DNA from: Elusimicrobiota bacterium
GTDB taxonomy: Bacteria; Elusimicrobiota; Elusimicrobia; Elusimicrobiales; UBA9959
Assembly: GCA_012517235.1 (NCBI GenBank)
Contig: JAAYVI010000107.1
Span: 1 to 39,327, forward strand
Length of the DNA: 39,327 bases
Direction: 5' to 3'
The notes under the pieces were generated by a model. The model was not told where the DNA came from and did no database searches. It saw only the letters and a list, made by a program, of their open reading frames with translations. Positions 14,322-26,477 of this stretch are shown piece after piece; the stretch's first letter is position 1; the number at the start of each line of letters is the position of its first letter. Both the position numbers and the translations under genes were made by a program.

Positions 14322-14501
14322 GGCTCGCTTGTTATCCTCGCCGCTAAAAAGGCGCTTAACAATGTCCTCAAAACTCGGCGGCCGGCAACTGTTCGCGAAA
14401 ATAATGTTTTCGCTCGTCTGACAAACCCGGTCCGTCTTCAAGAGAAGATACCCTCGTTTTTCGAACATTCGGCTTATGCGGCTCGAAAACCCAAGCGAGC
14501 C
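14322..14501. repeat. Structured dispersed repeat, copy 1, with terminal inverted repeats
   Basis: It fills most of the 247-bp gap between clpB and the convergent small gene. The ends are perfect 10-bp complements, GGCTCGCTTG (14322-14331) and CAAGCGAGCC (14492-14501). Inside are a GCGAAAA/TTTTCGC hairpin (14394-14412), a TCTTC-AAGA-GAAGA hairpin (14435-14448) and a TTTTCGA/TCGAAAA pair (14457-14489). Positions 14323-14490 match copy 2 (26137-26305) at roughly 90% identity by eye. A one-base indel shifts any reading frame partway through, so it is probably not a shared coding gene. Candidate natures are a non-autonomous mobile element (MITE-like), a REP-like element or a structured RNA. Confidence 0.75.
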
Positions 14502-25936: not shown

Positions 25937-26101
25937 ATCAAACGATCGGCTCAAAGTTATCTTAGATAAGAAGTCTTTTTATGATATGCGAATAATTAAT
26001 CTATAAACTCATCTATCATATTAAGTTTTCGGATCGAAAATATAACTCGCTTATTTACCAATCTTCCGGTTCTAATCCTCCAATCCTCTAATCATCCATT
26101 C

Positions 26102-26131
26102 TTCTATTTTGCCATACATCTACGCATCTAA
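26102..26131 (+). repeat. Flanking direct repeat, left unit
   Basis: This 30-bp sequence recurs at 26361-26390 with 24 of 30 bases identical, and its first dozen bases occur again at 26401-26412. The two units bracket repeat copy 2 with about 55 bp on the right. They look like remnants of local tandem duplication rather than a fresh target-site duplication. Confidence 0.5.
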
Positions 26132-26136
26132 TACAT

Positions 26137-26305
26137 GCTCGCTTGCTATTCTCGCCGCTAAAAAGCCGACTAACAATGTCCTCAAAACTCGGCGGCCGGC
26201 AACTCCTCGCGAAAAGCAAAGTTTTCGCTCGTCGGACAAAGCCGGTCCGTCTTCAAGAGAAGATTCCCTCGTTTTTCGGACATGCGGCTTATGCGTCTCG
26301 AAAAC
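26137..26305. repeat. Structured dispersed repeat, copy 2
   Basis: It matches copy 1 (14323-14490) at roughly 90% in the same orientation. The GCGAAAA/TTTTCGC hairpin (26210-26228) and the TCTTC-AAGA-GAAGA hairpin are unchanged. The left end GCTCGCTTG is kept, but the complementary right end is lost and replaced by CTCGCTT in direct orientation. Here it lies between divergent genes, whereas copy 1 lies between convergent ones, so it is not simply a terminator. Confidence 0.75.
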
Positions 26306-26360
26306 GCAATCTCGCTTCTTTGCCAATCTTTCAATCTTCTATTCATCTAATCGTCTATTA

Positions 26361-26390
26361 TTCTATTTTGCTATACATCCGTAGATCTAA
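26361..26390 (+). repeat. Flanking direct repeat, right unit
   Basis: Partner of the unit at 26102-26131 (24 of 30 bases identical; mismatches cluster in the second half). It lies to the right of repeat copy 2 in the same C/T-rich spacer. Confidence 0.5.
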
Positions 26391-26477
26391 GTATCCACGC
26401 CTCTATTTTGCCATATATCTTTTTGCCATATCTCTACGCCTCCCTCCATCCTTTTACGCTTGCTTGCTTTTCTAAGA

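Follow-up and report, generated by a model that had tools for sequence, protein, structure and literature searches.

The repeat analysed here, two copies of which lie in a 39,327-nucleotide stretch of DNA from an Elusimicrobiota bacterium (the window), is on balance probably a non-autonomous mobile foldback element, the structured core of which would be the part that is recognised. It is present in many copies, is placed between genes, has a core of covarying stems flanked by arms that pair without conserving their sequence, and occupies individual sites in a lineage-specific manner. Taken together, these features suggest that small, mobile and structured elements of this kind form a family not described before.

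The two window copies, both on the + strand and both of what is here termed type A, are 90.2% identical across 173 bp (14322-14501 versus 26137-26309 by BLASTN), with a match of 233 bits compared with a random ceiling for copy 1 of 29 bits in 20 Markov-1 random windows. Copy 1 (14322-14501, +), which is one of eight full own-genome copies by BLASTN and is missing as an insert from two congeners, comprises a left arm (14322-14373, +), assigned by module comparison to a module, ML, that is common to type-B copies, a conserved core (14375-14456, +; 88.3 bits, E 6.6e-20 with core model R2, filters off) and a right arm (14457-14501, +). Copy 2 (26137-26312, +), for which the BLASTN match extends to 26309 and the bounds are set by an eight-copy alignment, is similarly built, with a left arm of module ML (26137-26187, +; 96% to the ML reference), a core (26189-26271, +; 101.3 bits, E 4.1e-23 with R2, filters off) and a right arm with right end of a second module, MR (26272-26312, +; MR match at 26297-26328, 97%). 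Upstream of copy 2 lies what is likely left of a further, decayed right end (26034-26063, +; 81% to MR, E 0.012; also 26019-26096, E 4e-4), and copy 2 is preceded (26064-26136, +) and followed (26313-26475, +) by linkers that are degenerate and pyrimidine-rich in sequence, in a region missing at the orthologous site of the same two congeners (G001 and G002).

Pair counts in a 12-sequence alignment (A4) define the core stems of copy 1 as P1 (14382-14386/14426-14430), P2 (14395-14401/14407-14413) and P3 (14435-14439/14444-14448), all on +, and those of copy 2, likewise on +, as P1 (26196-26200/26241-26245), together with P1b (26193-26195/26247-26249), P2 (26209-26215/26222-26228) and P3 (26250-26254/26259-26263). 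P2 is the GCGAAAA/TTTTCGC pair, perfect in both copies and enclosing loops of 5 nt in copy 1 and 6 nt in copy 2 that are unlike in sequence; a TCTTC/GAAGA stem is also present in both. Copy 1 begins 11 bp past the stop codon of a gene of ClpB type, with a convergent ORF facing it. Copy 2 has tRNA/trigger-factor genes (-) on one side and a SpoIID-domain gene (+) on the other. The description in the earlier note, of copies about 90% identical that keep both stems with a changed first loop and lie at unlike sites, is thus borne out. Its claim of perfect terminal inverted repeats holds for copy 1, the termini of which (GGCTCGCTTG/CAAGCGAGCC) form a perfect 10-bp complement, but not for the family, in which the usual right end is GCAAGCTCGC rather than CAAGCGAGCC; the element ends given by the eight-copy alignment are GCTCGCTTGC and GCAAGCTCGC. 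The real terminal feature is the pair of long imperfect arms, each of about 50 nt, that flank the core.

Further copies, which the earlier note had proposed to look for, are numerous, and the repeat is confirmed as real, structured and dispersed, on a larger scale than first reported. In the parent genome (G000; 1.94 Mb in 140 contigs, so that all copy counts are minimum values) there are at least eight full type-A copies, with 88-100% identity by BLASTN, and at least about 18 near-complete type-B copies plus fragments, as well as 32 matches to the right end; many relatives also carry several copies. Type B agrees with type A over the ~50 bp at the left and at the right end but has a different interior, giving the own-genome copies a modular layout of ML and MR, and one copy (L135) has no interior at all. 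The type-B interior scores only 8.8 bits with model R2, and homology of the A and B interiors is therefore not claimed. Two type-B interiors (L125, L126) differ from that of L111 by a clean hairpin segment of ~55 bp, present in most type-B copies and missing from these two, which looks like the gain or loss of a small palindrome. Nearly all own-genome copies are intergenic, the rare overlaps with ORFs being short or confined to start-side extensions.

Several other features accompany these copies. Most are flanked by degenerate pyrimidine-rich sequence (ATCTAATCCTCTA/CATACATCTACGCATC-like) oriented as the element is, as also in the flanks of L102-L126. Other short palindromic repeats (e.g. AACCTCGTAGGTTATAAC, TAACCCTCGAGGTTAAC) occur in or beside copies (L127, L137, L118; L109), which suggests nested insertions. 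A sequence common to L123 in the own genome and L037 in G002, CCCCCTAGAGGAATCGGCTACAAATAAA, adjoins elements in both and is apparently another repeat family. Several copies (L107, L110, L135) are within or adjoin tRNA gene regions. In genomes like G000, moreover, many contigs stop close to a copy.

Type A is predicted to fold end to end, with the arms pairing in blocks and a branched core at the centre. The conserved core, of ~85 nt, has the three stems P1, P2 and P3 and unpaired conserved blocks before P2 (AACTCG), after P2 (CTCRAACA) and after P3 (GGATnCnCTC). In an alignment including a congener, nine predicted pairs of the whole foldback are changed on both sides with pairing kept, most of them in the congener copy; P1 by itself has both-side changes in six of its eight pairs across two genera, and homologous cores are present in G003, a member of another genus. 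Covariation in relatives, another check raised by the earlier note, is strong: in alignment A4, which was built independently of the structure, 92.6% of P1+P2+P3 cells are paired and both-side changes affect 11 of 18 pairs in 33 cells, compared with 11.1 cells in shuffles and 1-10 with slid partners. With 32 distinct matches, in an alignment fitted to the model and hence leaning towards it, both-side changes extend to all 18 pairs (143 cells). Compensatory changes supporting a shared structure are thus found, in part on the model-fitted alignment. As with Rfam structured RNA families, the covarying stems yield a covariance model that is specific for the element; by contrast with them, no Rfam 15 family matches it at the gathering score, and permissive thresholds gave no relevant weak match.

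The core model finds copies in 19 of the 59 genomes of the family (E<=0.05), the highest count in one genome being 10 and recall being limited by strict filters; many of the 59 genomes searched are without a detected core copy. The positive genomes represent about 10 of the family's 13 genera, one of which depends on a weak and doubtful match (L177; 25 bits, AT-rich), so that nine rather than ten genera remain when it is left out. A scan of the phylum (341 genomes, E<=0.01) gave 16 positives, all of this family, and none among the 282 other genomes, a result that doubles as a specificity control. The size of the element, about 180 bp in the own genome, is about 230-320 bp in some relatives. 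In G002 a second copy consisting only of the left half (L037, 3142-3221) lies in direct tandem with a full copy. Copies belonging to two genera (L169, L181, L175) have GC-rich palindromic inserts (GGCGGATCCGCCAAAGCTGTGTGGCGGA-like) in their right arm, which in L169 and L181 occupy the same place.

What is conserved among the relatives is the centre; the arm sequences differ by genus and partly by copy. The arms nevertheless pair within a copy, the duplex energy of the outer arms having a mean of -64 kcal/mol compared with -40 kcal/mol when each is combined with an arm of a different genus (Wilcoxon p 6e-9, a value that overstates the evidence because copies are not independent). The contrast is weak for the window's own genus and for that of G017 (g6); it is therefore chiefly the GC-rich genera that carry the result for the arms.

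The covarying stems also bear on a different proposal, that the repeat is a dispersed structured RNA used by the host, transcribed with its neighbours and acting through its core and long stem in mRNA processing, stability, termination or protein binding. The compensatory changes in P1-P3, the tolerance of the core for G-U pairs on the + strand as drawn and the conservation of the unpaired AACTCG and CTCRAACA blocks would all be expected of such an RNA, as would the position of many copies downstream of genes (convergent at 10 of 22 resolved sites in relatives). The own-genome copies, however, have no preferred strand relative to genes: the 26 with called genes on both sides divide into 5 same-sense, 10 antisense, 8 convergent and 3 divergent, with no strong orientation bias and few divergent pairs. 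Signals of the transcribed strand also appear, in so far as sequence can tell, to conflict. The mismatches of the outer arms on the + strand as drawn (21 G-T versus 47 A-C) would favour an RNA on the opposite strand, the z-scores of the folds do not separate the strands, and the G-U tolerance of the core is on +. Given in addition that the sites are lineage-specific and that in many genomes of the family no copy was detected, we consider a host-used RNA, although the main rival, a fairly unlikely explanation.

The case for a mobile foldback element draws on comparison of sites. With a 17-kb query syntenic with both congeners, the interval between the ClpB-type gene and its neighbour, where copy 1 lies, spans about 247 bases in the window but no more than tens of bases in G001 and G002, and at the site of copy 2 ~490 bp, i.e. 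the element and its linkers, are missing from both; the orthologous sites of both window copies thus lack the element in these congeners. A further example comes from two species of another genus. In G030 the end of one gene directly adjoins an element; in G014 the same gene end leads into unrelated sequence, and an element in reverse orientation comes about 200 bp further along. The relatives are 70-80% identical, and site junctions are accordingly not base-exact. No target-site duplication was recognised by eye, the nearest relatives being too diverged for base-exact empty sites. As judged from these alignments, the lineage-specific empty sites support mobility, while they could in principle be losses; the long-term conservation of the core could also reflect host use.

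Site gain at the window loci relative to the congeners would be expected as well if the repeat were a MITE of a DDE transposase, with the arms being terminal inverted repeats bound by the transposase and the core incidental. The long inverted arms, including those of the G003 copies that end in TGTCCGGTTAAAG/CTTTAACCGGACA, fit this proposal, and the element has in common with MITEs, among which Nezha, EFAR and others have been named (PMC3733652), its size range, inverted ends, insertion between genes and lack of coding capacity. By contrast with MITEs, its ends are its least conserved part: relatives conserve the centre, the arms vary within one genome and between genera, diverging while still pairing, and a perfect terminal inverted repeat is found in copy 1 alone. 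A matching autonomous element was likewise not found in G000 and G003, both fragmented assemblies, a result that also tells against the mobile reading in general. In the loci read, no ORF lying between element ends was recognisable as that of a transposase, the ends in G003 occur only as short elements or fragments among the matches listed, and the end matches in G000 and G003 include no full-length transposon with these ends. With no target duplication visible by eye either, in comparisons with relatives too diverged for exact junctions, a MITE origin in this sense appears distinctly improbable.

The palindromic, intergenic and multi-copy nature of the element, along with the four Y1_Tnp genes of its own genome, might also suggest a REP/REPIN-type element moved by a RAYT (Y1 HUH transposase). 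REPs are single hairpins of 20-40 bp with a terminal GTAG or CGTC tag (PMC3116915, PMC3733652), those tagged with CGTC being without a dedicated transposase (PMC3116915, PMC3733652). The element shares with REPINs and tagged REPs an extragenic position, palindromic form, multiple copies and lack of coding function, and with CGTC-tagged REPs the want of a recognised dedicated transposase. It differs in that, at 180-320 bp, it is far above the defined range of 20-40 bp (PMC3733652), and in that even the 180-bp form has a branched core rather than a single hairpin with a short loop. Its ends, GCTCGCTTGC and GCAAGCTCGC, lack an unpaired terminal GTAG or CGTC tag, the CGTC that is present lying inside the core beside P3. 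Nor is there an association with RAYTs such as characterises the GTAG class: no element is near any of the four own-genome Y1 loci, Y1 and core counts are uncorrelated across the 59 genomes (Spearman 0.001, p 0.99), and three core-bearing genomes have no Y1 match at E<=1e-4. An identity as a tagged REP or REPIN is therefore largely refuted by size, branched core, missing end tag and lack of RAYT association, and a RAYT-moved element of this type is very unlikely. Among the alternatives offered in the earlier note, a non-autonomous mobile element and a structured element have gained from the empty sites and the covariation, respectively, and a REP-like family has lost on size, architecture and want of RAYT association.

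In general form the element resembles the ERIC sequences of the Enterobacteriaceae, which are intergenic imperfect palindromes of more than 100 bp, present in multiple copies with full-length foldback and internal variants, and for which no mover is known. The likeness, one of general description, extends to intergenic position, a length above 100 bp, foldback, copy number and variants; the difference is that here a short core with three covarying stems persists from genus to genus although the arms are entirely altered.

A remnant of protein-coding or prophage sequence, to which the overlap of one 110-aa ORF with copy 2 might point, is scarcely credible. The spacing of the conserved blocks is not constant modulo 3 from copy to copy and no frame is conserved, in agreement with the earlier note, which had found any shared reading frame broken, and a coding origin is rejected on this basis. 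The covariation, moreover, is of base pairs. Phage records and IMG/VR patterns gave no matches, with no convincing relative among phage, plasmid and IMG/VR sequences, and the literature on an LFERSEF-like frame and on Elusimicrobiota repeats contained nothing relevant.

For the non-autonomous mobile foldback element that we favour, the following route may be envisaged. Each copy can fold into one long imperfect hairpin with the three-stem core at its tip, laid out as P1, then P2 within a conserved internal loop (AACTCG..CTCRAACA), then P3 followed by GGATnCnCTC. A putative protein encoded elsewhere may recognise this core, whether in RNA or in DNA that is extruded or single-stranded, and would copy the element to new intergenic sites; the arms would later diverge and exchange by recombination, so giving rise to types A and B, alike at their ends. 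Here core recognition, the mobilising enzyme and the route of movement are what we infer. More tentatively, it is possible that the identity of the element is held in the folded core and not in its ends, i.e. that a covarying structure of ~85 nt spreads within genomes and is maintained in about ten genera even as its arms are replaced yet stay complementary, and that it may move via a structured single-stranded DNA or RNA intermediate, by means of an enzyme new to such repeats.

The small palindromic repeats found in bacteria are usually classed by end sequences or tags, and for only some of them is a mover known. In the present case it is the central fold that is conserved and not the ends, and within the phylum the element is limited to one family of Elusimicrobiota. 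Recognition by structure can thus be put to the test with this family, and the core model offers a way to look for the enzyme and to follow movement at strain level in a group that is almost uncultured.
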